A stretch of DNA of 64,000 nucleotides from Polytrichum commune. Lineage: Eukaryota; Streptophyta; Polytrichopsida; Polytrichales; Polytrichaceae. Location: positions 9,325,001-9,389,000 of the forward strand of contig OX485807.1 of assembly GCA_950295325.1 (NCBI GenBank), written 5' to 3'. The notes under the pieces are model-generated. The model was not told where the DNA came from, made no database searches, and saw nothing but the letters and a program-made list of their open reading frames with translations. Position 1 is the first letter of the stretch. Each line of letters starts with the position of its first letter. A program made the translations under genes and the position numbers. Below are positions 20,569 through 64,000 of the stretch, one piece after another.

Positions 20569-23500
20569 TCATGGTGGAGGGACAGGGGTTTGCTTATTAT
20601 TTATTTTTCTTTTGTTTAAGACACATTTGATGGCGTTTTGGTGTATATTTTTCATGAAGGTTTTAATACGGGTTTTCGGGATTTCTAGTTTGATTAGTTG
20701 GTCTATGGAGTGTTCATGTATGGCTCCTCTTACTCCGGCGGTGATGGTAATGAGGGGGTTGGTATGCCAACCATTGTTTTGTATGATATTGATTAGTGGG
20801 TCGTATTTGGTGTGTTTGTGCATGAGGTTTTGTTTAGGGAATATGTCGTGGCAGTATGTGAATTCGATGAATTGAATTGTGTGCTTGGGGGAAGGTGATA
20901 TAGGTGTTTGTGTTTGGTTTGGGGCTCCAATGATGCACAATATGTTTGGTCTTAGTTTGGCATGGCATTGACATGTTCTTTGTGGGCATGTGCATTTAGG
21001 GAGCCATTCTGGGACTGTTTGGTCTGGGGGTTGGTTGATTAGGTTGCCTCCGTTGGTCAAAGTGAAGAACCGGGTGTTTTTATTGGCTTGTAGTGTCTGA
21101 GTGATGAGGTGGATTGCTTTGTTGTGCCTTGCAATTTGTAGTCCCTTTAAGTATGGATGTTTGCATGTTGATATTAAGTGGGGCCACATGTCTATGTCGT
21201 TGTTATGACATAGTGCACAGTTGGGGTTTTGGTACTTAAGGGGCCAGAAGATATTTTTCCTATGGGTTACCCATGTATTGGGCATATCCAAATTTTAGAG
21301 TTTGGGTAACTTGCATATCCAGCACTTTGTCGTCTTTCCATAAGTGGTTAGAGAGATTCTGCTTGATTTGTTTGTTTGATAGCCATTTGTCTACATATGG
21401 GAATTTTCTTTTGGTGGATTCCGTTTCACGGTTTCATGTTCTTTTGTTATGAATGTGTGGAGGTTGCGGATGGCTCCATCATGTGTGGATGTTGGGCAGT
21501 TTGCTAGCCAATAGGGGGCAGGGTGGGCTATGTGTATATGCGGCATATTGTTTGGTTTTTCTTTTAGTGTCCCTTCATTGGCTAGTGTGTTCGCTATTTC
21601 ATTTCCACTAATGCCCGTGTGTGCTCGCACTTTGTGTATGTGGATCATATGTGGGGTCCAGTGTATTTGATGTACGATGGCTGCGATGAATAATTTATCT
21701 GGGTGATGGTGTTGGGATGTTGGGTGTTGTATGTTTTTGTTGATTAAGTATATGTTGTTAAGGTTGTTTGTAAATATGTGTGTATCTCATTGGGTGGTTT
21801 GTATGGTTTAGATAGCAATGAGTATTGCATTGAGCTCTGCTCTTAGGATATTTTAGTATCCATGTAATCTTTATGATATTTGGGTGTTGTTGTTGGGGTT
21901 GTATACCCCGGAGCCTGCAGTATTGTCCTCTATTAGTCCTTTGGGTTTTTGGAGGGTGGGATAAACGACCCATCCGTGTATATGCACTGTTGTGGATGGT
22001 ATTTAAGGGGGTGGGTATGGTTGTATGTGGTGGGTAGAGGTCTTCTAATAATGTTGTTGGGAGGGGGATGTTTCTTTTGGGGGAGTTTTCCCATGCCTTG
22101 GGGAATTTAATGTTGTAGTGTGTAGGGGGTGGGGTGGGTTTGATGGGATAGGTGTCTATATGTGTGTTCGTTACTCTTTTTAGGACTCTTTGTAATTCGT
22201 GTGGGGTTTGTAAGTTCGTTGTTGGGTTTATTTGGTTGTGTATGTATATGATGAATGTGAGTGATGATTTTGTGTATTGGTAGTATTTTGGCCACTTCGG
22301 CGTGGGGTTGTAATGTATAATATGTGGTAGGATGGTTGCTATTTTGTGTATGTCTACATTTGTGGTGAGTGAAAGTTTTTGTGGTGTCCAGTCGGTGTGA
22401 TTGATTACTAGTATGGTGTTTGTTTGTGCATCTTCTTTGGCGCCCATTCTAGCCCAATGGATGGCTTCTAGGGTCATATTGTGGTCCGTGGGGAATGCTA
22501 GGCCTATTCCATTCCATCTGGAGGATTGTACGTGTCCTAGAGATCCAAATAGTGTGTCTCGGGTATGTGGCAAGTTATATTGTGTAAGTTGGATGGGGCA
22601 TGTAAAGGGGGGGGGGATGAATAGTACGAGTGTATAATTTAAAGGAATTTATTAATATTTTGATAATTTCCGGGTGTAGTGTGTGGCGTTGGTTGTTTGG
22701 TTGTATGTATTTTGGTTTTTTCTTGGGGAGTATGGTTATGTATCTTTGTATGAGCCATAATATTTCGGTCTCAAGACTTGTGGGGGTGGTTATAGGAAGT
22801 TGTTGAGGTGCAGGGGGTTGTTGTGGGAGAAACGTTTCCATAACCATTGTAATCTTTCCGTAGTGATGGTGGTTATGTACTTTCCGTTTTGATCATATAT
22901 GTTGGATTCTGAGGCTTGTATTTGTATGGTTGGTTTGTTGGTAAGAATGTCTTTGTCCGGGTTTGCATTCTTGCGTGTAGGTCTTGAGATTGGTAATGTT
23001 GAGAGGGGGGTGTATGTATTTATTGTCTTTTGTTTGGGTGTAGTTGAGGTAGTTGGCATATGCTTGAGTGGCTTTTTGTTTCCTTGTTACGTTTTGGTAT
23101 TGTGTTATGAGTAGTAGGTCGTGGTCTAGTAGGTAGTTGTCCGGGTGTAGGAGGTCTTCTTATGTGCACCATTGGTGTGTGTTCCTTTGTGTGGTTTGCC
23201 ATTGGCATAGGTATATTGTTTTGATGGCTTGTGCACCCCATTTGTCTTTTCTAGTAGTGGATTTTTCATTGATTATTGTGTGGATTGCTCGCCCTAGGGT
23301 GGGTTGTGGGTCAACGACGCTATCTTGTGAGCGGTGAGCAGTGAGCGGCGAGCGGTGAGCAGAAAATTTGAAAATTAAAAAAAAAATTGATTTAAAAAAA
23401 AAATCAGAATATTTGACTTAATTCTTACACCGAGTAGGACTCTTCATATAGTTTCTTTACAAATATGACTAAAAGTAGATGGTACGTTTAACTGTGGATG

Positions 23501-24120
23501 GTGCCTATAACCGTGGAGTGGAAGAAATTATAAACTTTTGAAAAAACCATCCATAAAAAGAAACGGAAGAAAACGAAAAAACAATTTAGAAAAAAAAACT
23601 TCCAAAATAATAGGGAACATAAAATAAGGGATAAGAATGTAAATTAAAAATTTAAGTATTTATCCACGAAAACTCAAAAAAAAGAAATAGGACCTTGATT
23701 AATTTTTGTTAAATAATATGCAGATTTTATAGAATGAAACCATAAATTCTCCATGGTCATAGGGTCTATATCATACATTTCATTGAAAAATTTGAAGAAT
23801 AAAAATTCAAATTTTCTGCTCACGGCTCATTGCTCACCGCTCACCGCTCACAAGATAGCATTCCTGAGTATGGCCGTAGTGTCTTTATTTTGAATTTGCG
23901 TTAGTGTTATGATCCCGTGTGTGTATAGTTTGTCTAGGTATTTTTGGGATTTTGTTTTGGAATTGTCGGTGAGGGTGGTGTATGTTGGGTTGGATTTCCA
24001 CGCTTGTTCTATTGGGGAATTTTTGAGGGGGAATGCGTGGTTTGCAGTGGTGACGTGGATCTCATATTCTTTTTCTAGTAGGAAGAGAGTTTTGGCTATG
24101 GGTGACCTTGCGCATGTGTG
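20569..24120 (-). pseudogene. LINE A ORF2 C-terminal remnant: linker, RNase H, CCHC finger and restriction-like endonuclease-type domain
   Basis: Read on the minus strand with frameshifts. The intact last segment, 21291-20569 (240 aa), has CALC...H...C at residues 25, 28, 38 and 43, then RHN at 55-57. It continues with CTCPQRTCQC at 100-109, RPNILCIIG at 114-122, IEFTYCHD at 142-149 and KHTKY at 159-163. CCHC, then RHN, then (K/R)PD, then an acidic residue and KY is the layout of the restriction-like endonuclease of R2 and Dualen-type elements; here the PD is PN. Upstream an RNase H remnant spans ~21985-21560: YTDGS, a frameshifted RAELNAI, FTNN where FTDS is expected, and HTGISGNEIA. Further upstream (~22000-22570) lies an unassigned domain containing HWARMGAKEDAQTNTILVI. 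The 23319-23859 element interrupts the ORF. Confidence 0.72.
23319..23859. mobile_element. 541-bp TIR element (MITE-like) with heptamer-repeat ends, inserted in LINE A
   Basis: Inverted ends of about 55 bp: the left begins GCTATCTTGTGAGCGGTGAG and the right is its near-complement ending CTCACAAGATAGC. The ends consist of degenerate GAGCGGT heptamers followed by CAGAAAATTTGAA. The interior is AT-rich with no coding potential, and G/T-rich LINE A sequence flanks both sides. No clear target-site duplication was found. Confidence 0.8.
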
Positions 24121-24398
24121 AGTCCTAAGGATGGTCTCACATGGTAATTAACCATAAAATAAGTAGTGGAAGGTGGGAAAAAATGAGCAATAAGGCTAAC
24201 CTCCATCTTAAAAGGAGATAACCTAAAATCAAAAGAGGTAAGAGCAATTAATGTGAGTGGGGAAGCGGAGTTTTAGAGGGAGAGATCAAGGAAGGAGGCC
24301 AAACTCGTTTTTTCTTCGGGCGGCCCGGAAGATGCCGGGCAACGCGAGAAAAAAGGAGAATGTTGGAGGGGTCTCGGGAGGTAGGGTGAGGAACCTTA

Positions 24399-24759
24399 GG
24401 GCCGGTTCACACTATGCCCAAGTCGAGAGGAGAAGTGTCACTTTTCTAGACCAAACTATGTCGAGAGGAGAAGCCTTTGGGTTGAAAAAATATATTAAAA
24501 TAATCCACGGCTAAAAATGTTCGGCCTCTCGACGGAAGTTTGGGTCGAGCATTTTGCTCGACCCAAACTTGGCTCGAGAGGCCGAACTCTTGGCGCCATA
24601 ACTTCCTAAAAGTGTTGCCACCTAGGCTCTTTTGGAGGGACGTCCTTTGGACTTCGGCCTCTAGTGTGAAGGCCGAGAGGACGGACTTTGGACATTTATG
24701 CATTTTCATTGGTCGAAACGCTTCTCCTCTCGAAGTTTGGCCATAGTGTGAACCAACCC
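24399..24759. mobile_element. 361-bp Tourist/Harbinger-like MITE
   Basis: Left end GGGCCGGTTCACACTATG, right end CATAGTGTGAACCAACCC, followed inward on both sides by matching GAGAGGAGAAG-type sequence. Flanks are TTA on the left and TCA on the right, close to the TTA/TAA target site of PIF/Harbinger elements. Non-coding. Confidence 0.75.
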
Positions 24760-27119
24760 TCATTATGCACATGAGAGAGGAGAGGTAGGAGGCTGGAGTT
24801 GGAGGCGGAAGCGCTGCCTCATTCCGAATGAAAGGGCACGCGCATCGAATGATGATCGGGTGAATTTCAAGCGAGCGGAGGCTCAAGCAATGCGGGTTAG
24901 TGACATTGAGGGAGATGGAGGAACTACTCGCAAGATCAGAAGCGAAAGAAAAGGGAAAAAAATTAGACAAAGGGGTCGAGAGCAGCCTCGAGATCGCATT
25001 CAATTAACGATTGATTGGAAAGCGCTCTTGTATTTGCGACTACGGGAGAGTGGCGAGATTCTTCGAAGCATCCCACTGGTACGAGATGTTCGCCTCCGAC
25101 AACGCTACCAAGCTCACTTGCCGAACCAACCAGCGGGCATCAGCAAATGCAACATTCGCGGCGAAGCTGCCCGTGGTCTTCCTCACCACTGCAAGGGCTG
25201 CGGGGGAGCGCAAAGTTCAGGTGCATCGAAGCGTATCGTTTGACGAGAGTAAGTTGGTAGTAGGGATCGTAGTCTAATATAGATTCTAGGTCTGAAGGTT
25301 TTTTGGGTGAGTTTCTATCAAGGCTGTGAGAGGTCTGGCAGTTTGATTTGGGTTGTTTCAGACATGCTGGTGCCATTTTCAATGTGAGGGACAAGAAGGA
25401 GAGTATGGTGGTCGAGTGTGTTCTGGGCAAGGCAGAGAGTTGGGTGCATTTTTACGGACGTAAGTAAGGGGAACTATTAGTGAGATAAGAGCACGACCTC
25501 GTGGCGCTGGAACGAGGATTGCTAGGTGCACGTGAACCTGGAGGAGACGAGGCTTACGGGGTGGGAAGAGGAGTCGAAAAGGGGTGTTGAGATTGCGGCT
25601 CCTGTGCACGAGATTGGGTGTTAGCGGAGTGATCCGCGGAGGCTAGCGTTGGCTGATGGGTTAATCAGAGAAGATTATGGGCTTGGTTGTGGGTGCGCTT
25701 GCGGCGGGCTGCACGGGGCTAGTGGGCGCGATGGCGGTGATTGGAGGATGAATACCGAGAGCAGTCGGAGCGCTCCATTCTGGCTGAGTCGGAAGGACCA
25801 GCTCTTGGGTGTGGCGCTCACACTAGGGGCACTGAGCCGGCATTGAAAACCTGACAGATTCCGCAAGTTGGGTCGAGTGAACTCGAAGGTGTTGTGTAGT
25901 GGAGCATTGGGCATAACCGGTCCCAATTGTTAATTCATTACTTCCTCATCTCTCTCTACCGGTGTGGGGGACTTCGGCTTCAGGGCAATTGATTATTGTT
26001 GCCGAGGGAGTAGGGGGTGTGATTCAGGACACTAGACGGCAAACCCAAGCTGCCCTTCACCTTGCTGTTGCTCTCGCCACCAAACACAAGGGGTTGACGC
26101 GACTGATACCACAGGTGAAAGGAAGCAGAGTGGCACACCGAGATTTCATCCACTACCTGGCTCTGTAGCGGAGACCGGGAAGGGGTTAAGGCTAAGTCAA
26201 GGCAGTGCCTCGGTTAACGTAGGGGAGTGGGATAGTTAAACTTAGGAGAAGGATACTAGGGCTAGATGGGGTGCCTTGTGATATTGTAAGTGACTCGAGT
26301 GTTTGTGAATACTCGTGTGGTTTAATAAAAACATAAAGGTGTCATATACACCACTTCTCACACATTGATGGGATTGAAGTGCACATGTGAATGTTGAGTT
26401 TGGGATGTGACAAGGGACCCTCCACCCGGACTAGGACGCAATGAAGGGTGGTAGGTGATTCTTGCTCACATAAATGGTGCATCCGCTGGGAGTTGAAGGG
26501 TGTACAATTGTTGGAGGTTGGTGTGGTGAGAGGTCACGCGAGTGGAGGAAAATGTCTTTGCTTGAGGTAAGCAACTGCAACTTTGAGCTCCCACCTTGCT
26601 GATTAATTCGTGGTCAATTCGAAATTAATTTTCTTAATTTATTTAATTTAAATAATAAATAAAATTGATTTGCAGTCAATTAAGTTTACCACATTGTTTT
26701 ACTATTTGTTTTTTACCTCAGTTGCCAGAAGTCACCATGTAAGTTATTTCACTGTGGTAATTTTCTTTTACTATGGTAAAATTATTTTTACTAGATAACT
26801 TTTCATTTTTTACTATTATAAGTTAATGTTATTTTTTACTAGCCGCAAGTAGGTGGGGAGTTAGAGGGGAGTGTGGGTTCGCCCCAACCTTCCAACACTA
26901 GCACAAAGTGTTGGAAAGACCTCCCTCTAGCTCTTGTGCTAGGCTCAAGTGAGGGGGCCTAGGGGTAAAAAGTAGAGGCCTTTATATGAACAACCAGTGA
27001 GCCTCTAGGCCGAAGGGGAGAAAACATATGCCCGAGTATGGGACAAGGGCGTTTTCTCCTTCACCCCCGAACTTGACTTACCACCAAGGTAAGAGTGGTT
27101 AGTTCCTTTATAATTACTT
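24760..27119. other. Unassigned sequence inside the LINE A footprint
   Basis: Replaces the APE and RT part of LINE A. A GC-richer stretch at 24,990-26,170 has short open frames on both strands, one encoding RFFEASHWYEMFASDNATK, but no recognisable domain. From 26,570 it is AT-rich, with ATTTAATTTAAATAATAAAT near 26,640. It may be another retroelement or a captured fragment. Confidence 0.35.
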
Positions 27120-28860
27120 TTAAATTCCATTGTAGAAGCTTGATGGGGAATTCTTATAGTGGACACTAGTGAATCCCGGTGGTGCTAGTTGTAGCATATT
27201 GTTATCACCCGCATGTGTATTGGCCATAAAGGTGCGTGGTGTGTGTGGAAGTCTCACGGTGTTGGCATGAGGGGGGTCCGGTGAAGTGGCGGCTAGAGTT
27301 TGCATTATGTTGTAGATGCAATGGTTTGATTGTTGGAACTCCATAGCCATAGCGCTTATGATATTGTGGATATTGGTTGCATGTGTCATGAGTGTGTCCA
27401 TGAAGGCCTCGATTCGCATGTTCATGTTGAGGTTGATGTTGTTGGTGAGTGTGTTGAGTTTGTCATCCATTGTCTCGGCGAGTTCTTTCATGGCCTTGAT
27501 GAAAAACTTCTCTGATACAAGTGGGGAGGAGACAACGGTCATGACTTTGGTTTTTTAAGTGATAACATCTCTCACGGGTGCATGTGCTAGCTGGATGGCG
27601 GTTGGATTTGGCTCGGTACCGTCAATACTTCCTTTGTGCGGGACGAAAATCACCCATCTCCTGAGGATGTACGTGGATTTGTGTAGTCATTTCGTATAGA
27701 TCACTACGTTAAGACATTGGATGTGACGCCATCTGGTTTGTCTATTGTTCTCTTGCTTGGTTTTATATCCAAAGGTGACCCCGGAGATGTTCTCCTACCC
27801 AATTAGCCTTTTGAAATATTTGGTAATTCCTTATTGGGATTCTCGTTGTGGAAGGTTGTTCGCGACAAGGGTAGTGCTAATTTTAGCTCCGATGGGTTGC
27901 CCAACTTTTTGTCTTTGGTGATGCTCACATTAAAGCATTTGAAATGATAGGTGAGGCCATTATTGAAGAGGCTATCTCTAGATTCTTCGGTGGTGAGGGT
28001 GATGCAGGCAAAGTCTTTTTCGATGTCCAATTTGATAAGGGATAGGATCTCGATTTTTCATCCGTCGTAGTAAGAATTCCTCATGAGGTTTTTTAAAGTA
28101 TGTCTATGGCCGTGTTGTTGCGGAGGTCTTCCCCTTTAAGGTATAGTCTCATGTTCCGAGCTTTGATGATGAGTTCGAAGCCTTTCTCCACCTTGCCAAT
28201 GATTCTTTCTCCGTCCCCCATAGTCATGAAAAATGCGCGTTCACCCTAAAGTAGCGCCAATCCGTCTCGTTTCGGGTGTAGGAGGTGGATTTTGATGAAC
28301 CCAACCCAATTTTGTGTGACCGTGTTGATTTTGATGTCAATTGGGTTGGAGTATGTAGTGCCAAGAGGTATGTTTATGAGGCGGAACCTCTCCAAACATG
28401 CAATTTTGACCTCCCTCTGATTGAGCTTCTTGTACTCTCCGTCGAATTGGATGGTCACGTGGAAACCTTTGGTAAGGCCCGTTTCTTGGGAAATCTTCTC
28501 ATACATGGGAATTTGTGTGAAGTGTAGATGTTGGCCGGGTACCGCATCTGGATGTTCGTTGGGGAAGACAATTTGTTTGGTTCTTGGGAATGCTCTATGA
28601 AGTGAGTAAAATTCTTGAATTTCATTTGCGGGATGTGCCAATGGTGATGAATTCCTCGTCGGTGCAATACTCCTTCAAGTTTTTTTTGCCTCTTTGGGTG
28701 GCAAAGGCTTCTTGCATTTGGAATCCTAGCCACATTTGCCCTAGCATGTCAATGCTTAAAGTGGATGTCCGTTTTGCTTGTGTGTATGGAGGTGTTGATG
28801 TGTGCTTGCTTGGTGCCTCGGATGTGGACGTTGCAGTGTAGTCTTCGGCCTTGCGTCATT
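27120..28860 (-). pseudogene. LINE A ORF1 remnant
   Basis: On the minus strand, in several frames. GQMWLGFQMQEAF (~28740) matches PPFWLGFQAMNW of LINE B ORF1. The 28641-28246 segment carries FTQIP and WVGFIKIHL. The 28030-27803 segment (EKDFACITLTTEE, then FKCFNVSI) sits where LINE B has its middle domain. The last segment, 27542-27120, is a Met/Asn-rich coiled-coil candidate corresponding to the ORF1 C-terminus. ORF1 proteins of LINEs bind and chaperone RNA; this copy is broken. Confidence 0.7.
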
Positions 28861-29120
28861 TGGTAGTTTGGCTCTCCGATGGGTCTGCAATCCTTGGGTT
28901 TCGGTATTCTAGCGTTTGCGGTATGCTCTCAGTAGTGTGTATGGGTTTGGAGAATGTTATGGTTGCTTGCTTCGAGTTGCGTTTGTACGACAGTTATATG
29001 GAGTTGTTCCCTCGTTCCAGGGAGACAATCTCTATCTGGGCATCCATTTCTAAGTCCTCTTCGGCTTCGAGGTCATTGAAGTGGGGGGGGGGGTCTAATG
29101 GGATGGTTGTGAGTTGAGGG

Positions 29121-31149
29121 CAACCGGGGGCTACGCTAGCACTTGCTATTTGAATTCATGGTACTGGAAATCTAGTGATGTCGGCTGTGAACTGCCTACA
29201 GGTGAGTTGATGTGATCCATGGAAATAAGGGGATTGCGTGAGAGGTTACTTGAGGTCGTATATAGTCCTTGGTGGTTGGCCGATGGTGGCCTAGGCAGCT
29301 CCGTTTGTTCTGGTTTTCTTGGGGTCGGGTCGTGGTGTGGAGTGATGGTGTCAGGGCGTCATTGTTTTGAATTGTAGTCTACTTTATTGTGTGATCGTGT
29401 GTGTGTGTCCTGGTGTTGAGAGGGAGTTGGGTTGGATGTGGGCTTTGGTGGTAAAGGTATGTTGTGTGACCGGGGCTCGGGTATGGCTATGTGTGTATGT
29501 CTATGTTGTCTTCGACAGTCTGTGTGGTGTCGTTGTGGTGATGGAGTGTCTAAGTGGGTGTGAGAATGCCTTCCCATCGTCATTTTGGGGCTGACTGGTG
29601 CGGTTGTGTGTGTAGGTGGCTAGTTGTGGGAAGGTTGTTGCGGCGCTGCGAAGTGGGTCGATTCTTTAGGGTGGTGTGTTTCAAGGCGCGTGTTGGGATG
29701 GTGTTTGGCTTTAGCTAGGAATTTGGGGGAGAGTTGGTGTTTGGTGGCCGTTGTGTTGAATCTTGGGGTTGGTGCAGGAGGTTGGCAAGTGATGAGGTGT
29801 TTGTGTGGGAACTTGGAGTTAGGCGTGCATGCACTCTGTCTTGGCCGAGGTCTTGTGTTGGGGTGGTGTTTGCTGTAGTGTTGGTTCCTGTTGTTGTAGC
29901 ATTTGGGGGGTTGTTGTCGAGTTCGGTTGTGTGAGTGTGTCATGTGGTGTGCTCTCTAAGGTATGGTGTGGGCGTTGAGAGGGGGTGGTGAAGAGGGGGT
30001 GTTCACTACAACAAAACACGTCTTTTACAAATGGGTTTTTCAACTTCTACAAGTGAAAAAACCTAGACTTTACTGACGTGGAAAACGACCAGTCGCTTCA
30101 GACAAGAAGTAAAGTGTGGTCATAGTCATGTCGGACAGGACGTTCCCAATGGACACGTTCCCAATGGCAGTGAAGTTTGGGGTGCTCCAGTGCTTTACTT
30201 CTTAAAGTTGTGTCCTACTTCACTACACCTCGTCAATATAAGTAAGATAAGACACACGTTCATATAACTAGGCCTAGTGGACTCATGGCACTGACACCAG
30301 TTATGTATGGTGTTTGCAGTAGGGAGGAGTATGTGGGTTTTCTGTAGAGTGGTGAGGAAGTGGTGGGGAGCAGTAAGAGTGGGAGGGGTGAGTATGTGAG
30401 GTGAGCGGGTTTTTGAAGCTATGGCTATGATGTTGTGAGACATATAGCGAGAGGGGAGAATTGAGAGGGGAACTAGGAGGTTTCTCTGTGTTGTGAGAGT
30501 GAGATTGAGAGGATAATAGGGGGCGGAGGACTCTAGGAGTGGTAGTATAAGAGATGTGGGGGAGCTGGTAGATAGATTGTTGAGGTGGGATAGATGGATG
30601 TTGTGTAGATTGGAGTTGGGTGTGTTAAGAAGTGGGTTGTGTGTGATGGTTTTGGCGGGTAGTGGTGGAGTCTTCTTGGTGGATGCTAGTGTTAATGGGT
30701 GTGGCAAGGTGGGTTGTATTATTTTCTTGGGGAATTTTGGTTGGGGTGTGTGTTTGGCGGAGTATCTGATTTGGGTGGTTGTGAGCTAAGGGACTTGTGT
30801 GTGAGTTGGCAAGTCAATTTTGTTGGAGTTAGAGTTTCTAGAAGTGTTTTTTGGGGGATGTTCTTGTTGGCTTTGGTGTTTGTTGTGTTGGACTTGACAT
30901 GTTTGCCATAGTTGCAATTAAGTGGATGTGTGTTTTGTTGATCTGGCATGTTTTTGCTTGTGAGGGGCTTGTTCTTACAGCATGGTACCTTCTGGTTGGG
31001 GATTGAATTCGGTTGTGTAGGGATGGATACTTTCCCAGCAAAGTTGAGTGTGTGTGTGAGCTCACAAATAATGACATTTTCCTTACATACATTGACTTTA
31101 GAAACACTTTTGGCTCCATTGACCATGTGAGATTGCTTGCTCATTAACA
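29121..31149. other. G/T-rich region, probable 5' leader of LINE A plus unassigned DNA
   Basis: The same strand bias continues to about 31.1 kb. The minus strand is C/A-rich and reads as low-complexity Thr/His/Pro/Asn protein, like the leader of LINE B. No domain is recognised. A block at 30004-30230 differs in composition and starts CACTACAACAAAAC; it may be a separate insertion. Confidence 0.4.
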
Positions 31150-31385
31150 ATATGTAAACCTAACATTATTTATCATCCCTTGTAAAAACATTTGGGAATA
31201 AAGAATTTGCAATTTGCAATTATGGTCATTTACTAAATGAATTTTCATCCAAATATCAATCATCCATGACAATATATCATTACAGACTTTCCAAATGCAT
31301 GATATACCGAAAGTTAATGAACTACAAGAAGAAAGTTGGGATGACAAGACTTGTAAACTTATCCCCAAGAAGTGTCATCAGCAAA
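31150..31385 (+). repeat. Dispersed ~240-bp repeat, copy 2
   Basis: Begins ATGTAAACCTAACATTATTT and contains ATCATCCATGACAATATATC, then ATGCATGATATACC. Lies directly beyond the G/T-rich block, in the same orientation as copy 1 on its other side. Confidence 0.7.
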
Positions 31386-34876: not shown

Positions 34877-34879
34877 TAA

Positions 34880-40300: not shown

Positions 40301-41860
40301 GTTGCTGAACAGCAAGGCGGTAATATCGTAACAATTGTTGAACTATGGGGTCTATTATCAATCAGTCGTACATTTGATGGAAGAATGTGAAGTTTACAAC
40401 AACAAAGATTATGCGATGACGATATTTTCTAGAACTGATATTCAAAATACATGAGCATTTCAAGCTGTAGTACTTCATTACATCAAACATCAGCCCAATG
40501 GCATATGACAGAAATAAGCTCCTCTCTATCTAAGGTGCCATTCTTGTCTGGAAACTATATTATTTCATTTCAGTAAGATTGCATAGATGCAAGATTTCCT
40601 TGTACTTTTATTGAGTCATCCTGAAATTTTAGGAATCTGGACAGTGTACGGGCAATTTAGTGTAGAACATGTCACACTACTTCCCTTCATGTCTGAAATT
40701 TCAATGAAATCATGGTGTTCGATCGATCGAAACTAACCCGACTGAACGTTGTTTTGATCCCAACAGAGCAAAGTAGCATGTGGCCAGAGGAGACCACGAA
40801 GTGCATCGAATGGTTGGACAACCAAAGCCCATCATCGGTCATCTACGTGTCGTTCGGGAGCTTGATGAACATCACCACCGACAAACTTCATGAATTCATG
40901 CTTGGCCTCGAGGACTCGGGAGTGTCCTTCTTGCTTGTGCTCCGCCCTAATGTGGTCGATGGCGGCCATGATCAGACCGGTAAATATACTTACTTGCAGA
41001 ATAGAAGCAGTCTGACTAATTTTCCTGACATTTATATTTTGTTCATCGCAACTTTTGTATGAATGAGTATACTATACACTTTCTAAGAAATGTTGGAATC
41101 AGAAGAAGAGGAAAATTTATATTTGAAGTTGATTTCTTAGCATGTTTTTCAAGGATCATCCTAAAACAAGGGTCTATATACAGATATTCTAGGTCTGTGA
41201 AACTCTTATTGTGAGGGAATGTGTTATGATATCTTACAATGAGAGCATATTCTTTCACGAGAAATACGAACATTTTGAATCACGGTTCTTAATTGCATTT
41301 TGATGTCACTGGCCCTTCACGACTATTATACAGGAGCCTCCGCCCCCGAAACTGGATCTGGAGGCCAACTTCTTCACGAAATCGTTCTACCTCTAGGATT
41401 TGAAGAGCGCACAAAAGCACGGAGCCTAATTGTCTCATGGGCTCCGCAACTCCGTGTGTTGGGCCACCCCGCCACTGCAGGTTTTGTGTCACATTGTGGA
41501 TGGAACTCAGTTTTGGAGAGCATCTGCATGGGTATGCCGATGTTGGCCTACCCGTTTTTCGCGGACCAGCCCATCAATAGCCGGTATTGTGTGAGTGTTT
41601 GGAGAATGGCGTTAGAGTTTGAGACTACCGCGTCCGATGAGGAGGGTAGGCATCACTTGGAGCGGCACGAAATTGCGGCGAAGGTGAAGGCATTGGTGAC
41701 CGAAGGCAAAGGTGTTCGAGGTGGAGCAATTGCATGGGGAGAGGCCGCTCACAAGGCGGTTGCAGTAGGAGGCTCCTCGTATCTTGACATGGCCGCCTTT
41801 GTTACGGATATGTGTAGAAGAGCTCATGAAGCAAAACCATCAATTTCCGAATCAAATTGA
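37357..41860 (+). CDS. UDP-dependent glycosyltransferase (family 1, PSPG box)
   Basis: Four exons: 37357-37523, 38947-39689, 40767-40979 and 41334-41860. They total 1650 nt, 549 aa, with phases matching at every junction. The N-terminus [17 protein letters not shown] carries the conserved catalytic His (H19), and the acceptor-binding domain follows. Exon 3 has the linker signature [20 protein letters not shown]. Exon 4 carries a complete 44-residue PSPG box at residues 410-453, from [11 protein letters not shown] through [10 protein letters not shown] to FADQ. The final Q suggests UDP-glucose preference by family rule. Such enzymes glycosylate small acceptors such as phenolics or hormones in the cytosol; the acceptor cannot be told from sequence. 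No signal peptide. The protein is longer than the usual 450-500 aa, partly from a linker of ~15 residues after H-D-Q-T. No inactivating change is seen. Confidence 0.93.
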
Positions 41861-54276: not shown

Positions 54277-54879
54277 AGTTTTAAAGTGGCATGTGATTTT
54301 TAAATGGTTTTTTTAACATGTAAGTATGTATTCAATCCTGAAAATGTACATAGATGAAAGACAATCATTTAAGAAAATCTATGAGCACCACTTCAAGAAT
54401 TCATAAAATATTTATTTTTCATTTCAAATATATAGCAAGACCAACTTTCATGTTCCTCGTTTGGATTTGCAAATGTGTGCATGTAGGTTTTCTTGAACCA
54501 TCAAACTCCTACATTTGTTAGAATGTTGGAAGTGTCCACTTTAGGCCCACTTACCTTATGCCAAACATCCTTCCCGGACACAAGGCAAAATACACCGTTT
54601 ATCCTATTTTTTGGTTTTCTTACAATTTAAGGTAGATGGTCTTAAATACTTACATAAAGTCATGGCTCAAATTTTCCTTTGGTAAAAGCATGCATCTTAT
54701 ACAACATAAGAGGTGGAACACAATGGGACCTCAAACATAATGGCAAATAAACCTAGATCATGGCACACACTTGATGGTTGAAATTTGATCTAGGACTTTA
54801 CATTCAATAATGCCCTTGGAACATGGTAGTCCGCAGAGCCCAACATTTTCCTTTCTAATTGCACCCATACCCAGACCAT

Positions 54880-55215
54880 GCCCATCAGCAACGACCTATG
54901 CCCACCCATGCCCACCCATAGCATGACATGTGCGCACCCATGCCCACCCATGCCCACACATAGCATGACATGTGCCCACCCATGCCCACCCATGCTATTC
55001 AAATTGTGCCCATGTATTCAAAAATTATGTAATGTGTATTGTGTAATTGTGTAATTGTGTAATTATGCCCCACCCATGCCCGCCCATGCCCGCCCATGAA
55101 CAATAATAGCGCAGCCATGCCCACCCATGCCCGCCCATGAACAATAATATTGCACCCATGCCCACCCAAAACCCATGGGCATGGGTGGGTATGGGCATGG
55201 GCATGGGTATGGGCG
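54880..55215. repeat. GCCCACCCAT minisatellite with an inverted arm
   Basis: Many GCCCACCCAT and GCCCGCCCAT units on the plus strand, in two or three clusters joined by AACAATAATA and GTAATTGTGT repeats. From about 55177 the strand reverses to GGGCATGGGTGGGTATGGGC, so the end could fold back on the array. Confidence 0.88.
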
Positions 55216-57299
55216 CCCGATGTAGGGCTCTGGTAGTCCGTGAATAATGCCCACATCCTCATGCGGGCGTTTATTCATGAAACGCTATGGTCCTTGGGCA
55301 TTGTTTATCACTTCTTTGACTAGCTCACTTCTCATAGGATATAAAACATGTGATTGGTATGAGATTGTTAACTTAGCAAGTCCAAATCGAGGTTGCAACC
55401 ACGTTACTTGTAACTTTTGGAGCTTGTACAAATATCTTATTCATTACCGTAGGTTCATAGCTGGTTCGACACATGTTAGCCGAATAATTAATTAAAGTTC
55501 AAAAAGTAGATTCAGCACCTAAAAATAGTATATTCATATTTCCGGGAATTTTCTCTTTTAATTTTTAAAATTCAGCTTAAATTCATTTTTAATTTAAGCT
55601 TACATCTTGTACATCTCTTTTGCATTGAATGACAAGTAAGATGTGGGTGAACAGTTGAGAATGCTTTGTGCTTTATGCAAGTAGAGTGGAGTCGTGTTCA
55701 ACAATGCATATGGGATATGTAAACTTTGAGGTGAAGCACCGAGTTAGACTTCATTTTAATAACACACATAACTTTTGCATAGAGTCTTCAAATGACATAA
55801 AATTTGTTGGAGGTGAAAGATTACTTGATTTCTAAACTTTTCTTAGACCACATAAATTCCAAAAAAGTTGATCTTCTATGCACAAATGAGCTCCGAAAAA
55901 CTGTTATGAACACATTTTAATTTTTTGATCTTCACACGGCTGCAATGTTTTGTCCATATCTTTTGCATTAAGACTTATTTTGAGACAAAACTTGTTGGAG
56001 GTGGAAGAATGATTGATTTCTCAACTTTTGTTAGTTGGACAAAATTCTATAAAACTTCATCTTCTATGCTCAATTGGACTCCAAAAATTTGTGTACAACA
56101 CATTTGAAAAGCCTCACCTAGAGTCTTGCTACTTCTTAACCCATATTCTTTGTGGACTAATGTAAGTGAGCTTGATTACAAAAGGAACACCTTCTCTCTT
56201 TCAAAATTTACATATGCTTCCACTGTAAGAGAAACTCTAGTGAGAAGTAAAGATTTCTTACTTTTTGGCAATTTTGAAAAATAATGAATTTTATATTCGG
56301 CAAAAAATGCCAATAATATTCCAAAATTTTCGGCATCTATTTTTGGAATTATTTTTTGTTGAACCTGCTATTAAACTAAGGTATCAAAGAGACGATTCTT
56401 GTGCACATTGGATGGGTCACATAGCCTCCCCCCCCCCCCCCTCCTAATTATGCTGATTATTGAGCTTTAGAATGTTTGCATGTTGTGAGCATGTAGTTCA
56501 AAAATATTTTAAACACATGTCCCATTGGTGTTTGTTCGTTCTTGGATATACACTTATTACATATCATTCCAATATAAGTCTCCAATTAGTTGAGAAGCTG
56601 AATTGGGGACGTCTGCCTTAAGGCACGTGGGTGTTATTCGGTTTATTTTTGATGTTTTCCAACTTCTACAAATGCAAGTTATGTACAACCAAAACTTGTA
56701 TTGCATTAGCAATCAACGATAGAGCATCGACAAAAATCAAATCTCCCTTTATTTAGTTATGGTTAGCAAAAGTGTATACATGTGGATTCTTTAAACAAAT
56801 ACTTAGGTCCCCTAACTATGTTGACTGTATGAGTCTAGAATGGGTAATAAAATTTGAGCATATACTCCAATCTCTTTGGACACATGTGTTGTTGGGTTCC
56901 ATTCAAAAAAAAGGATGGAGGACTGAAGCGCTCTGCAGTGTGGCAAGAGGCAGGAAGATGGATCTGAGGAGCTAGCCGCAGAGAGTTGCACACGAACTCT
57001 CTACCACATGAGGGAAGATCTTTGCTACTGATATGAAGCATGGGGGACTAAGTAGGTGCGCTGGGGCACCATGCAAGCAAACAATGGGAAGGTAAGCATG
57101 CTGGGATGCTCTTCCAAGTGAAACATTTTGCAGATCTTGATCTAACTTGTTGGGTTTTCCTTCCCACTTTGCATTTATGGAGTAGTTGTGCCAAAGTGCT
57201 AGAAGAGTGGTGGCATAAGAGAAGTGTTGGCATAAGATGTAGTGTTGCATCAAAAAGGAAAATAGAGAACAGGCTGGGCTGTCATCTCCCCCACCATTG
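55216..57299. other. Intergenic, no gene seen
   Basis: AT-rich. Contains a C homopolymer at about 56430-56441 and two related segments near 55790 and 55990 that both carry AAACTTGTTGGAGGT- or AATTTGTTGGAGGT-like sequence, a decayed duplication. Nothing codes recognisably. Confidence 0.4.
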
Positions 57300-57414
57300 A
57301 CTGCTTGCAACTAGGACACCATGCTCATCATTCAACACAAAGATCTGATCTCCTAGGCTACCCCTCCTCAGCTAGATCTGACTCGCCTCAAGCCATTCAA
57401 ACAAGGCACAACAA

Positions 57415-58872
57415 ATGGCACATTCATCGAACAGGCTTGCACATTCTCACATTACTCTTGCAACTCATTTTACTCATCAAGTTGATACATATCACCCTTT
57501 TACATATGTATGCCATAACACTACCTTTAGCATCAAATCTCCTACACTAACCATTTTTTACAGAGATCTGATCCCCTGTGCAAAAGAAATGCTAACACTA
57601 GGTACGAAAGACCCAAAAGCGAAGACTGAGCTGCACCGGAGATCGCAAACCAACCTGCACCAACCACCAAACAAAACAGGGGATCAACATCAAAGAACCT
57701 CCGCACATCAACGAATCCGGCAAGATCAGGTAAGCTTCTCTAAAACCCTCCTAACCCACAAAGCCCAGAACCCAACACAGGAAGAGGAAACCAAGATCAG
57801 CGGCGAGCTGGACACCCGCAACACCAACCCAGCCCTGACGAATGACGGAGAGAAGAAGAACCAGAAAAGCAAGAATGCAACAGGAAAAACGGCGACCCAC
57901 AACACCGGCCCCCGCCAAAAGATGATTGCGATAACAACCCCGACACCTGCAGGAACCCCGACCCTCAAACAACAGGTACACACCAGCAAAGTGCCGCCAA
58001 CCTACCAAACCACAAGCCCGGAAAGCAGCGCCGAAGGGAATCTACACTCCGAAGGCCGAAGCACTCACAGAACCACCTGCAACCAACAAAAGTCCACCAC
58101 CCCGTTGCCCCCAGAAGAAGAGATACACCAGGAGCAACATACACCGAGGATGCGGCCAAAACGATGTCAACACCACAAAGCAAGACGGATCCAGACAACC
58201 GAAGTGCAGACTGCCCCAACGAACCCATCACCAAACCAAGAACGACCAGCAAAGAAAACGAAAGCCAAGCCAACAGAAAGAAGGCCGAATGTGCACACTC
58301 AAGGAGTAGGAAGAAATAACAAAAAATTAATAGAAAAACCACTGTCACCCACCAAAACAAGAAACCCTAACAGAGATTGCAATAGCAGTACTGAGACAAG
58401 GATGTTTAAAAGCCTTAGCAACAGAAAACATCGACCAAAAAATGCACCAACCTGCCAATATAAAGAGAAAGAGAAACTGTCATCTCTCAATCATACCTAC
58501 TTACCAACATGTACTCACTCTCTCCCTCTGATTAGAGCAAATCTCCCTCCCCCTCTAGCCATTAGCATACCTCTCCACCCCCTATACACACAAGTAGAAG
58601 CAGCCTACATCACCTGTAGAAGTAGTGCAGCAGCACCCCGGGATCAGCACCAACAAGCCCGGCGAACAAACCCAGAGCCGAAGACCGAAACGCACTGGAA
58701 CAGCAAGGAGCGGAGGAGTAGACTCAAGCAGACAGAGGGAATCGGCAGCCGAGAGCAGACCTCGCGGAGGAGCAGACTCAAGCAGACAAAGGGAATCGAC
58801 AGCCAAGAGCAGACCTCGCGGAGGAACAGACTCAAGCAGACAAAGGAAATCGGCAGCCAAGAGCAGACCTAG
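57415..58872 (+). CDS. Possible leader ORF of LINE B, low-complexity 485 aa
   Basis: Runs from ATG 57415 and stops inside the tandem-monomer block. The product is rich in Thr, Lys, Gln, Pro and Asn with no recognisable domain, and its C-terminus consists of repeats such as RRSRLKQTKGI. The openness may result only from biased composition, and other frames of the monomer block are open too. Not a confident gene. Confidence 0.2.
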   Translation: MAHSSNRLAHSHITLATHFTHQVDTYHPFTYVCHNTTFSIKSPTLTIFYRDLIPCAKEMLTLGTKDPKAKTELHRRSQTNLHQPPNKTGDQHQRTSAHQRIRQDQVSFSKTLLTHKAQNPTQEEETKISGELDTRNTNPALTNDGEKKNQKSKNATGKTATHNTGPRQKMIAITTPTPAGTPTLKQQVHTSKVPPTYQTTSPESSAEGNLHSEGRSTHRTTCNQQKSTTPLPPEEEIHQEQHTPRMRPKRCQHHKARRIQTTEVQTAPTNPSPNQERPAKKTKAKPTERRPNVHTQGVGRNNKKLIEKPLSPTKTRNPNRDCNSSTETRMFKSLSNRKHRPKNAPTCQYKEKEKLSSLNHTYLPTCTHSLPLIRANLPPPLAISIPLHPLYTQVEAAYITCRSSAAAPRDQHQQARRTNPEPKTETHWNSKERRSRLKQTEGIGSREQTSRRSRLKQTKGIDSQEQTSRRNRLKQTKEIGSQEQT

Positions 58873-59280
58873 CGGAGGAGCAGACTCAAGCAGACAGAGG
58901 GAATCGGCAGCCGAGAGCAGACCTCGCGGAGGAGCAGACTCAAGCAGACAGAGGGAATCGGCAGCCGAGAGCAGACCTCGCGGAGGAGCAGACCCAAGCA
59001 GACAGAGAGAATCGGCAGCCGAGAGCAGACCTAGCGGAGGAGCAGACTCAAGCAGACAGAGAGAACCGGCAGCCGAGAGCAGAACTCGCGGAGGAGCAGA
59101 CTCAAGCAGACAGAGGAAATCGGCAGCCGAGAGTAGACCTCGCGGAGGAGCAAACTCAAGCAGACAAAGGGAAACGACAGCCGATAGCAGACCTCGTGGA
59201 GGAGCATACTCAAGCAGACAGAGGGAAACGGCAGCCGAGAGCAGACCTCGCGGAGGAGCAGACTCAAGCAGACAGAGGGC
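58700..59280 (+). repeat. 54-bp tandem monomers in the LINE B 5' region, about eleven copies
   Basis: GAGCAGAC marks successive units at 58753, 58807, 58861, 58915, 58969, 59023 and onward, exactly 54 apart. The unit includes CTCGCGGAGGAGCAGACTCA and AGCAGACAGAGGGAATCGGC. Because 54 is divisible by three, each frame repeats as 18 residues; one reads SRPRGGADSSRQRESAAE. Confidence 0.95.
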
Positions 59281-59466
59281 AACGGCAGCCGAGAGCAGCC
59301 GACAGCAGAGGAGACTGCCGCAAAGCAACATCAAAGGACAGCAACGGCAGCCGAGAGCAGCCGACAGCAGAGGAGACTGCCGCAAAGCAACATCAAAGGA
59401 CAGCAACGGCAGCCGAGAGCAGCCGACAGCAGAGGAGACTGCCGCAAAGCAACATCAAAGGACAGC
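59281..59466 (+). repeat. 62-bp tandem monomers, three copies
   Basis: AACGGCAGCCGAGAGCAGCC starts at 59281, 59343 and 59405, and each unit runs through GACTGCCGCAAAGCAACATC to AAAGGACAGC. It directly follows the 54-bp array and shares the GCAGCCGAGAGCAG core with it, so it probably derives from it. The 62-bp period shifts frame every unit. Confidence 0.95.
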
Positions 59467-60202
59467 AACGCCGAGGGGAGCCCGGCAAGCTACTACCCGA
59501 GGCGCACACGTGGAGCTCCACCAAACGGAACTGCCCCCGTAAATCATCTCAACGGCCTGCACCAAAAATACCAGGGAACTGGTCCGCCACGTTCAACCAA
59601 TTCGAAACCCAGCAGACCATACCAGGTTCACCACAAAAAACTCTTGGATCAATATGTACTTAGCAAAATGGTGTAAACTACATAGAAATCCTAGTATCTG
59701 CCGTAAAACTCTCTCTAGCACAAATATGCAACACATATGGGTGCTTATTCTGCAAGCATGCATCCATGTCCCCCTAAACAAATTGAATAGGGGGTATGCC
59801 CAAAATCTCTCACACTCTATTAGGAATAATAGAGTCAAAACGAATGAGTTGTGTGTATGTACCATGCATAAAAACGCTTGCTACTATAGTGTCAAAAAAA
59901 TGAAGAGCTAGGCAACTACTTAGCATACATGTCCATGATACCTCTCCTAAAAAAATGCTAGGATATTCACCACATGCATCTATTATGTTCTCTCACAAAA
60001 CAAATGTCACAAACAATGCTCCTATGAACATAAAAATTGGCATAAAAATCACTACATCACTAGGAACATCTCCTTCTCAATGGTCATGCTTCACTCGGCC
60101 CCACAAATTAAGTTGTGGGGAGAAGAAGACCATGAGATTACTAGGAGAAACTCTATACCACAAAAAACCAATAGAAACTTAACACAAAGTTGTTTTTTCA
60201 GA

Positions 60203-61825
60203 ATGTCTCAACGGACCACAAACTCAAGCTCTTCCCAAAGATACAAAGAGAAACTCCTAGCCCTAGAAAATAACCCCGATGTAGAAATGTTTGTAACTCA
60301 AAAACGCTCCTCTTCCTCTCAAATCACTGCAAATCAAAAGAAGGCTAAGGGCAAACCAAACTCCGGTTTGAAACGCCCTCCCTTTTGGCTTGGGTTCCAA
60401 GCAATGAATTGGACAAATAGAGGAAAAGGACTCCCCATGGATAGCCATGCCCTGGTAGCCACTCTAGTGAAAAATGGAATGAGAGAAAAAGAAGCTAGAG
60501 AATGTCAATCCGTTGTTTCTTCCTTCCCCTTTGTCATCCAAGAGGAATGGCCAAACTCTAGAGAGGACGGTAAGGAGGGCCAACATTTTAACCTCACACA
60601 AATCCCATCGGATGTGGAGGTCGACAAGTTTGGCTTTTCATTTGACTACCAAATTGCAATTTTCTTTGAAATGGGAGAAAACGATTGGGAAAAAGATACG
60701 GTCATGACATTAGTAGAGTCAAGGCTCAAAGAGATGAACATTGAGCTTGGGGATACAATAGGGGAACCCATTGCACTAATGTGTTACCACAAATCCACAA
60801 AGTGGAGTGGGGTAATCAAACTACACTTGAAAACCCCCGAGATTGATGGGGTGGAGCTCCTGCAAGGAATCCGCCCATTTATTCTCAAACTAGATGATGA
60901 GAAACTCAAGAGAGGGAAAATATGCAAAACATATGAATCCCTAGCCTTGAATAACCTCTTGTCGGTCAAAATTACAAGTGAAGGGCTAGAATCAAAGGAA
61001 TGGTATGAAATGTTTGTAAAAATTGTAGAAGAGAGCTTCCAAAGGGGTACGGAATACGAAATAACAAACATTCAAAAGAAAAAAGAAAACCTCTTTGCAT
61101 GGGTAGTAGCCTCTTCACCGGAACAAGCCCAACGGATGAAGGACCATCAAATCACCTACAACAACGAAATATTGGACGGGAAACTAGCCGACCAATCACT
61201 CGCATCCAAGGATGACATCGCAAGGAAGAACGCCCTCATCCTCATCGCCAAAAATCTCAACAAAGCAAAAAGCGTGGAGGAAATCGAGAAGAGTATCGAA
61301 GCATACATGGGACCTAAGAACGCGGTCAACTTCTTCTTCAAACGCGATGACAAAAATGGTAAACATCTAGGATCATGCAACATCCAATGCCTAAATGCAA
61401 TGGTATACAAGAAATTTGGCAAGAAAACCGCAAAACTACTTGGCAAGCATGTAGAGTTTACCCCCCACCCTAGGAGCCTTGATGGAGCCAATGCACCAAG
61501 TGCAATGGAACTCACTAGACTAGGGTTTAGTGATGTGAACACTGCCCTTGCAAATACCATTGAAACACTTGAAAACATTCCCGCAAAAGAAAACCTACAC
61601 AAAGATCTCATGAAAGAAATAACCGGAATAAGAGAGGAAATTACCACCATGAAGGATGAGCTACGAAGTGAGCAACAACAAATTGCGGAAAAAGTCGTGG
61701 AAAAATCAACATCAACCCTCCATACACAAATGACACTCCTAAAAAGACAACTTGCCACAACCATGCAAGCACTAGAAATGGCTAGTTCCTCGGCCATTGA
61801 AGGCAACACGGATACGACAAACTAG
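60203..61825 (+). CDS. LINE B ORF1 protein: N-terminal conserved domain, RRM-like domain, coiled coil
   Basis: 540 aa from ATG 60203 to TAG 61823-61825. The frame also has an ATG at 60080, but MSQRTTNSSSSQ at 60203 gives a more typical disordered start. A conserved region begins PPFWLGFQAMNW (~residue 55), with FNLTQIP and WSGVIKLHL shared with LINE A. An RRM-like fold follows: RNP2-like NALILIAKNL and RNP1-like KHLGSCNIQCLN (residues ~344-392). The C-terminal ~90 residues (KENLHKDLMKEITGIREE onward) form a strong coiled-coil candidate. Such ORF1 proteins trimerise, bind element RNA and act as chaperones in retrotransposition. The next ORF starts in the -1 frame over its last 25 bases. No stops or frameshifts, so it is potentially functional. 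Confidence 0.8.
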   Translation: MSQRTTNSSSSQRYKEKLLALENNPDVEMFVTQKRSSSSQITANQKKAKGKPNSGLKRPPFWLGFQAMNWTNRGKGLPMDSHALVATLVKNGMREKEARECQSVVSSFPFVIQEEWPNSREDGKEGQHFNLTQIPSDVEVDKFGFSFDYQIAIFFEMGENDWEKDTVMTLVESRLKEMNIELGDTIGEPIALMCYHKSTKWSGVIKLHLKTPEIDGVELLQGIRPFILKLDDEKLKRGKICKTYESLALNNLLSVKITSEGLESKEWYEMFVKIVEESFQRGTEYEITNIQKKKENLFAWVVASSPEQAQRMKDHQITYNNEILDGKLADQSLASKDDIARKNALILIAKNLNKAKSVEEIEKSIEAYMGPKNAVNFFFKRDDKNGKHLGSCNIQCLNAMVYKKFGKKTAKLLGKHVEFTPHPRSLDGANAPSAMELTRLGFSDVNTALANTIETLENIPAKENLHKDLMKEITGIREEITTMKDELRSEQQQIAEKVVEKSTSTLHTQMTLLKRQLATTMQALEMASSSAIEGNTDTTN

Positions 61826-64000
61826 CTTGGTCAAACAACGCTACGGTAATCAATAAATCATACCTACTAGTATCTATAGATACCTTAATACACACTAAAA
61901 ACTATAAAAGAAAAACAAATCCTCAAACTTCAATAAAAAGTGTCAAACAACACTATAAAACAAAATCCCAAATACTAAACAAAAACAAAACTCAACTAAA
62001 ACGGGCTCGGCCTACCGGCCTCGCCACAAAAAAGAAAGAAGAAGAACAACAAAATAAACCACCCACCCAAACTACTAAAACCCAACAAAAACAAAATAAT
62101 AATAATAAAAACACACCAACACAAAAAACATACAAAGTAACCAAACAACCTAAAAACATAACAAACATCAAAACCAATGTAACCCCCACTCCAAGTACCT
62201 CTCATAACAACAACAACATCAAAATCACCAATAAACCAATACGATTACAAACTAAATACAAACTCATCCACTCACACAAAGATGAGATACTAACCCATCT
62301 ACATACCAAACCAATTTGGCCACATAACATAATGGCAATAGAAAACACACATCTACTAATAGCCACATACAATATAATACGCTCCAAATCCAAAATAGCA
62401 ATAAAACCACTTACCACTAAGAAGGATGTAAAAATGAACTACAAAACTAATATCCAAAAACTAAAAAAGGACACTCCCCTATCAAAACAAAATCAACCTA
62501 CCAACCTTGCCAAAAAAATAATAATAAGAAGAGAAAATAGAACAAAAAAGAAGAATAAAACAAAAACTCACAAACCCAACGACATTCTAAAAAGTCATAA
62601 AAGAAACAACACAAAAGAAACACAACAAACACACAAAATAAATAAACAACCCAAACACACAACCAAAACAAATGAAACCCCCACTATGGGCATCCCTCAT
62701 AACAACAAAAATATCAAAACTAACAAAACAAACAAAAACAACACTACAAAAAATTACCAACATCAAATAGATATCACCAAAACTAAAACTAAAATACCTC
62801 GGCATACCAACCTCGACCAAAAAGTATACGCAACCACACCACACTACAAAGATAATAAAAACAAAATAATATACACACCATCTAAAACCCATACAAAAAA
62901 TACCCGAAAACACAATAACCCTCAACACCAAAGACACACTACTCACAAATCCCCCAAATCACACAAAATAACCAACAAACCCAAACACCTTACTAACAAA
63001 GACAACATCACCAACACATCAAACTACTTAAATAACCACACCTCGAAACACCTGCTACTCCTCTGTGGAGACATCGAAACTAATCCAGGACCAATGCCAA
63101 ACATACTTAAAATGCACCCACCATCACACAAAAATAGGAATAAAATGTATTTTATACCTTGCACAATAAAACTGCACCCAGAGTACCAACACTTAGCAAA
63201 ACAATTTGCTGCATGTCTAAAAACAACACACCCAAACCACACTGCCACATCTATAGAACACCCACACCTCTCAAGATACATACAAGAAAACCAACATCAC
63301 CCACCCCAACGCATACTATATGCACTCATTACTACAATAAGCCCATTACTAGAAACATGTGACCATCAACTAATGCACATACCCAACCCAGACTGGACAA
63401 CAACACTCCTTGATAAAATAGCACATCTCCAAAATCCCCCAGAAAGACACATCCTAAAACCACACCCATACACAGAATTTATAAACAACAACCCAAACCT
63501 AATCAACCCCCCCAATACCATTCACAAACAACTATATGATTTTATAAAACAAAACAATAATTCCCCAAACCTTCAACTACTAACAAACAAATTCCCATTC
63601 CTACCTGAAAATTTACTAATAGAATCTCTCAAATGCAACGAACTCATAATAGAATATTCACATCCACCCCCACTACCCAACATAACATTACCACAAAGCC
63701 AAGATACACAAACAACTAATCACGACACACACATCATCACATGGAACGCCTCATCTCTAAACACAGTCCTACCAAACATATACAACTTAATCACAAACAC
63801 CACAACAAGCCCAACAATCATCACAATACAAGAAACCAAACTAACCGCAACAAAATCAACAAAATATATACAAAACCTATTCCCAAAATACAAACTAATT
63901 TTTAATAACACACATGCGCTAACACGTTGCATACAACAAAGAATGCCGTATACCCCGGCAAGAGGAGGACTCCTCACTCTAATAAATAACAAATATGCAT
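61801..64000 (+). CDS. LINE B ORF2, N-terminal part: basic leader, 2A-like motif, linker domain, start of APE endonuclease
   Basis: Stop-free from 61801 to the window end (733 codons) in the frame of 63040. The first in-frame ATG is 62332, later ones include 62434 and 62686, so the start is undetermined. About 410 codons of Lys/Asn/Thr/Gln-rich sequence lead to HLLLLCGDIETNPGP (63049-63093). A globular region of ~210 aa follows, for example TIKLHPEYQHLAKQFAA and YALITTISPLLETCDHQLM. From ~63739 come APE-type endonuclease motifs: IITWNASS (motif I), IITIQETKL (63820-63846, with the catalytic Glu) and RGGLLTLINN near the edge. The enzyme would nick target DNA for target-primed reverse transcription. 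RT and the rest lie beyond the window. Confidence 0.78.
63067..63093 (+). other. 2A-like ribosome-skipping motif in LINE B ORF2
   Basis: Encodes GDIETNPGP, preceded by a Leu-rich stretch (HLLLLC), matching the D(V/I)ExNPG|P consensus in full. 2A peptides cause the ribosome to skip the G-P bond, releasing the upstream product. They have been described in other non-LTR retrotransposons. Here it would separate the basic leader from the endonuclease/RT polyprotein. Confidence 0.85.

Follow-up and report, generated by a model that had tools for sequence, protein, structure and literature searches.

Endonucleases of the APE type and restriction-like endonucleases (RLE) are normally alternatives in long interspersed elements (LINEs), and elements with two cutters are known mainly from algae. 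Does a plant genome hold LINEs that encode both? The question is raised by a stretch of 64,000 nucleotides of Polytrichum commune (contig OX485807.1, positions 9,325,001 to 9,389,000; hereafter the window), which contains two partial LINEs, LINE A and LINE B. A first-pass annotation treated the interval 20569-64000 as one non-long-terminal-repeat family with APE, RLE, and RNase H, and assigned it to the Dualen/RandI clade. The plant does carry a real multi-copy LINE of Dualen/RandI type with two predicted endonucleases. LINE A and LINE B are very probably copies of two families of this type, in which the second open reading frame (ORF2) encodes one protein with 2A-like sites and both nucleases. 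The type assigned to the interval stands for both copies; its treatment as one element and one family is to be abandoned.

Both endonucleases in single copies

The search covered an assembly of 407.8 Mb in 64 contigs, where the window is G000:C5:9325001-9389000 and the seven large contigs C1-C7 (42-78 Mb each) hold 406.1 Mb together. One copy, L015, is a single frame of 2372 amino acids (aa) that includes every domain, and L052, a B-type copy, is open over 2546 aa or more within the fetched stretch and holds APE and RLE together. L013 and L014 show the same domain order spread over two and three frames, respectively, and in both a unit made of 2A and the following domain occurs twice in tandem ahead of APE. 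Downstream of the window, the flank of LINE B (L009, L051) continues with the rest of the APE, the reverse transcriptase (RT; AAYADDL), a PCIF1-like domain, RNase H (PF00075, 3.5e-13 in Pfam), and CCHC-RHN-KPD-EFTY-K; therefore, one element holds both endonucleases. The N-terminal APE ascribed to LINE B is thus borne out by its start in the window and its remainder in L009, and the combination with RLE and RNase H, pieced together at first from two partial copies, is found in single longer ones. The LINE B copy itself is dead, because in-frame stops and frame changes break its ORF2.

The APE motifs TWN, QETKL, GDFNRDI, and SDH are present in L009, L013, L014, L015, and L052. The first-pass annotation had named a full-length copy lacking a C-terminal RLE as its counterexample; in all five, the RLE lies in the same element or protein as APE. 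Pfam matches of L015 above the cut-off are RVT_1 (1.4e-32), RNase_H (PF00075; 1.3e-14), and Exo_endo_phos_2 (9.7e-8), and below it PCIF1_WW (3e-6) and Exo_endo_phos (2.8e-4); L013 also matches Exo_endo_phos. Pfam does not recognize the first ~91 residues of APE, that is, the part of the LINE B domain that lies in the window.

Throughout the genome, the APE query gives at least 89 matches (88 of 1503 candidates scored) and the RLE query at least 137 (137 of 6976 scored), these being lower bounds because few candidates were scored. Among the APE matches listed, 56 of 89 are followed on their own strand by an RLE match 3-9 kb downstream (median 6090 bases). No RLE match lies upstream of any of them, and a single pair is on opposite strands. 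Five APE-RLE pairs among the matches listed share one frame length, of which four are intact by this census, because the 2038-aa frame on C4 holds stops within its APE match. The 33 unpaired APE matches include L013, whose RLE was read directly, and 13 members of a 42-44% family that includes L052; the latter are unpaired because their RLEs fall outside the RLE list, whose weakest member is 74-77% identical. Copies occur on all seven large contigs and at many divergence levels, which argues for long residence and against contamination, a reading that was rejected. Two copies on different chromosomes, L015 and L022, show 99% identity in the region of the APE query, a sign of recent activity of the LINE family.

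These data bear on whether two unrelated LINEs, an ordinary plant L1 with APE and a separate R2-like element with RLE, have been conflated. A and B do differ as families (27% identity in ORF1), and neither APE nor RT is present in LINE A. Yet APE and RLE occur together within a single element in LINE B, in L015, and in L052, the listed pairs occur only in the correct order, and the RT is not of L1 type (see following). Given the single open frames that span both domains, conflation is rejected as extremely improbable. A mistaken reading of the plant-L1 zf-RVT knuckle as an RLE was likewise rejected: zf-RVT is found in the L1 control from this genome (L010) but in neither L015 nor L013, and the RLE fold is R2-like.

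A second alternative is that the RLE is a decayed or merely DNA-binding leftover and that APE alone works. In LINE A, the catalytic D of the RLE is replaced by N (RPN), as first read, and the motif K is found in 9 of 12 aligned sequences, not in all. The N occurs in LINE A and nowhere else in the alignment, D being found in 11 of the 12 aligned relatives with a gap in one, and the five other own copies that were read retain PD and EFTY. The predicted catalytic motifs of both nucleases are intact in several copies. Comparisons of L015 with L013, L014, and L052, and also with LINE B for those pieces that could be compared, give ratios of nonsynonymous to synonymous substitutions (dN/dS) of 0.11-0.21 for APE, 0.09-0.20 for RLE, 0.05-0.06 for RT, 0.06-0.44 for RNase H, 0.14-0.30 for the PCIF1-like domain, and 0.26-0.34 for 2A with its following domain, all rough values because dS is close to saturated and no ratio is defined for four of the comparisons. 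The ratio is as low for RLE as for APE, which suggests purifying selection on both nucleases and makes the leftover account quite improbable.

Reverse transcriptase and 3′ end

Among PDB entries, the best match of the L015 ORF2 is R2 (1.3e-39), and no L1 appears up to E = 1; the L010 control matches human L1 at 7.5e-59 and R2 at 1.3e-14. In the RT tree (35 sequences), LINE B, L013, L014, and L015 form one group (support 100/100), nested with Pleodorina, Parachlorella, and 19 metagenome sequences (100/99). Six members of this clade in alignment A1 carry both APE and RLE; the RLE of Pleodorina is not seen because the protein ends soon after RT. The second RT tree was made without the long-branched P0150, and in the first, which included it, the own elements grouped in the same way. 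Neither tree includes P0129, P0139, and P0151-P0155, owing to the RT-motif filter. Grouping of the RT with L1, the other outcome that had been held to speak against a Dualen/RandI element, is rejected by the approximately unbiased (AU) test (p = 0.0174, single comparison), and so is grouping with R2 (p = 0.0133, single comparison). The putative assignment to Dualen/RandI rests on architecture and on the placement of the RT among green-algal and metagenome sequences.

Several points weigh against this reading. Long branches drew a warning from the tree program, and no sequence in the tree is labelled Dualen. LINE B is missing from the 89 APE matches, which underlines that their number is a lower bound. 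The near saturation of dS and the undefined comparisons count on the same side, and neither a target preference nor a target-site duplication was established. By eye, the four A-type 3′ flanks share no target.

Green algae are the nearest named relatives, and one may ask if the lineage was acquired from an alga by horizontal transfer and not by descent. The presence of diverged copies on every large contig stands against this, and such a transfer, which would have to be old, is improbable.

The PCIF1-like piece of LINE B matches PF12237 (45 bits, with a cut-off of 31.1), and the domain resembles human PCIF1 (6irv) weakly (E = 0.012). NPPF is catalytic in PCIF1. It is not found at the matching site of LINE B, which has AHPH, or of the A family, which has AFPT or AHPK; P0129, P0130, P0133, P0136, and P0146 have NPEY. 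A catalytic role of the domain in the plant copies is unlikely.

All six copies read (L013, L014, L015, LINE A, LINE B, and L052) end in a ATTCACGCCGG-type 3′ end that folds as a stem-loop, in which base changes keep pairing. It is followed on the 3′ side by a T/C-rich (pyrimidine) tract or by CTAT-type repeats, (CTAT)n, and not by poly(A). Green-algal RandI tails are (ATT)n and (CTATTT)n, and the LINEs of flowering plants are L1 and RTE, according to the accessible text of PMC3747384. The 3′ untranslated region of both B-type copies (L051, ~1370; L052) contains a string that resembles a B-box and reads AATCGAACCCGG in the sense orientation. A tRNA-derived 3′ end was rejected despite this string, as ARAGORN and Rfam find nothing.

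2A/StopGo-like sites

The first-pass annotation did not mention the 2A-like peptide of LINE B. In the ORF2 alignment of eight proteins, GDI, NPGP, and the following MP are invariant. The site of LINE B, GDIETNPGP, fits the StopGo core (D/G/C/N)(V/I)ExNPGP, which is described together with LLLLSG-type lead motifs in the accessible text of PMC12846837. The pattern [DGCNES][VI]xxNPGP occurs in some frame in 26 of the 30 loci excised by the APE query, and L036 has three motifs in one reading frame (intervening stops not checked). Over 43 motifs from 29 loci, selected by the pattern and counted without L021 and L026 (which duplicate L015 and L014) and the window sequence (which duplicates L009), two to four codons are used for each of G, D, N, and P. 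The 2A is present in all seven close ORF2 homologs P0120-P0126 (the query included the 2A region), in none of the 23 algal-type relatives P0127-P0149 (some with an incomplete N-terminus), and in none of the eight own L1 loci (L010-L012, L016-L020). These predicted sites are a new trait in a Dualen/RandI-type LINE.

Are the peptides active? They may be inactive, with NPGP kept for another reason. The residue after D-I/V is E in 15 of the 43 motifs, Q in 16, H in 10, and K in 2, so part of the copies fit the core, and Q or K stands at many sites of the A family. Against inactivity, LINE B-type sites match the core and an LLLL(S/C)G-type lead, and the sites stand in tandem, each ahead of a conserved domain. 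Moreover, H at this position (p14) is more than 95% active and E14Q retains 56% or 26%, as given in part of PMC12846837. Inactivity is, on these grounds, rather unlikely.

We lean slightly toward the view that the plant dual-endonuclease LINEs split their polyprotein by natural, often tandem StopGo sites, which possibly replace the proteases found ahead of APE in some algal relatives. Three observations tell against the main Dualen/RandI reading: Q, H, or K takes the place of E in 28 of 43 motifs; L023, L024, L041, and L045 (4 of the 30 APE loci) have no match to the 2A pattern; and the predicted structure of the 2A-to-APE domain (from P0123) has a pLDDT of 40 and gave no identity. Among algal-type relatives, protease domains ahead of APE were observed in P0130 (Ulp1 C48 and a weak OTU) and in P0142 and P0149 (Josephin). 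No protease domain has a Pfam match in L015 or L013.

Toward the 5′ end of ORF2, the DNA motif TCGGCCTACCGGCCTCGCCAC is repeated, at position 62009 of the window and at 8677 and 8377 (- strand) of L052. Its peptide readings, seen also in P0120-P0124, are KRARPTGLAT-like or SAYRPRHK-like; because it recurs in different reading frames, the motif may act as RNA or DNA and not as protein.

Window features and known relatives

Features of the window, in window coordinates
Feature	Position	Strand	Basis or remark
NIF-like phosphatase gene piece	958-1653		host gene
RWD domain gene piece	15108-15773	-	host gene
LINE A 3′-terminal stem-loop	20431-20461	-	similarity to other copies stops at ~20418
LINE A RLE	20569-21294	-	CCHC 21219-21163, RHN 21129-21121, RPN 20952-20944, E 20865, K 20817
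LINE A RNase H remnant, frame-shifted, with stops	21560-21999	-	match to L015
LINE A ORF2 piece, PCIF1-like region (L015 residues 1462-1866)	22076-23300	-	match to L015
LINE A ORF2 piece just past RT (L015 residues 1316-1387)	23914-24129	-	match to L015
LINE A ORF1 remnant	27132-28807	-	tblastn with L015 ORF1, 44-60% identity
UDP-glycosyltransferase (UGT) piece	41279-41857		PF00201; host gene
Tandem arrays directly upstream of LINE B ORF1	58710-59470	.	54-bp, ~11 copies; 62-bp, 3 copies
LINE B ORF1 (stop-to-stop frame; first ATGs ~60080, ~60203)	59951-61825	+	open frame
LINE B ORF2, 5′ part; runs past the window to about G000:C5:9395080	61801-64000	+	open frame, flank L009
2A/StopGo-like peptide LLLLCGDIETNPGP in LINE B ORF2	63052-63093	+	core invariant in 8 aligned proteins
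Conserved domain of the 2A-to-APE interval, LINE B	63094-63726	+	many invariant alignment columns
LINE B APE endonuclease start (TWN, QETKL)	63727-64000	+	motifs; APE Pfam match in L015 and L013

LINE A extends from 24129 to 20418 (ORF2 pieces 24129-23914 and 23300-20572), with an ORF1 piece at 28807-27132, and ~3 kb of other DNA lies where its 2A, APE, and RT would be expected. The ORF1 and ORF2 pieces may be parts of a single insertion. The RNase H remnant, CCHC, RHN, RPN, IEFTY, and KHTKY reported for LINE A were all recovered. The homology of the two ORF1s had also been recognized correctly (27% identity, E = 3e-17); LINE A is closer to the L015 family (61% identity from RNase H to RLE, 44-60% in ORF1) than to LINE B. 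Judged by their sequences, the two are different families. The UGT gene, which like the zf-RVT L1 elements of the genome is consistent with a plant host, and other DNA lie between them, and at least 119 homologs of LINE B ORF1 are found at E <= 0.001. An insert at ~23.87-23.30 kb within LINE A has GAGCGGTGAGC-like repeats at both ends (23330-23850) and is perhaps a small DNA transposon. The tandem arrays are possibly the 5′ leader or promoter of LINE B. At 31058-31141 (+), on the strand opposite to LINE A, lies a piece of RT, 28 residues long, from this type of LINE.

We know of no APE or RNase H in R2. R2 (PDB 9nl2, 9nl3, 9dou, 8gh6) shares the RLE fold and motifs and is the nearest RT in PDB, but the AU test separates the two. 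The plant L1 elements (L010 and seven similar loci) have APE and RT in the same genome and differ by zf-RVT, the lack of an RLE match and of 2A, and an RT that matches human L1. With Dualen/RandI, the copies share APE plus RLE, RT, and RNase H (accessible text of PMC4640811, PMC3636483, PMC8226300, PMC3747384, PMC4438587) and a 3′ tail other than poly(A); their RT, in a tree with no sequence labelled Dualen, groups with volvocine and chlorellid algal sequences. They differ from it in the plant host, in the 2A/StopGo-like sites, and in having no Pfam protease match in L015 and L013, whereas Josephin, Ulp1, or OTU-like domains occur in part of the algal relatives. APE plus RLE is given as the mark of Dualen/RandI in passages of PMC4640811 and PMC3636483. 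Available passages list Dualen/RandI under green algae only (PMC4438587), Dualen in Chlamydomonas relatives (PMC8226300), and LINE/Dualen in cryptophytes (PMC12747079). No land-plant Dualen was found in the papers searched, a search that did not extend to Repbase and most subscription papers. The 2A is known in animal and trypanosome LINEs, which, like the present ones, encode APE (PMC4981915, PMC11512398); these are described, in the text available, as APE-type, whereas here RLE is present too and the 2A is often in tandem.

A working model can be proposed for these LINEs. ORF1 would probably be an RNA-binding or chaperone protein. ORF2 encodes a low-complexity leader, one to three 2A-like sites each with a conserved domain after it, and then APE, RT, the PCIF1-like domain that lacks NPPF, and RNase H, with an RLE of the CCHC/PD-(D/E)xK kind at the end. 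The ribosome would release the leader at 2A and restart at the proline, and the enzyme core may recognize its own RNA by binding the 3′ stem-loop. One nuclease, most likely the RLE beside its zinc finger as in R2, would make the first nick that primes reverse transcription; APE might cut the second strand or broaden site choice, and RNase H would remove the RNA.

These families, which are rich in copies, have open frames, and show signs that each nuclease is under selection, offer a multicellular host in which the roles of the two enzymes may be tested. The 2A-like sites occur in many copies of an element of a plant genome, in contrast with plant viruses, for which a passage of PMC12846837 states that no natural StopGo use was found; if the sites act as predicted, this would be natural StopGo use inside a plant genome. 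Part of PMC4640811 presents Dualen as evidence that APE-type LINEs arose via replacement of RLE. If both types of LINE endonuclease are indeed kept functional together, these plant elements would be a living intermediate for that proposed replacement of RLE by APE.

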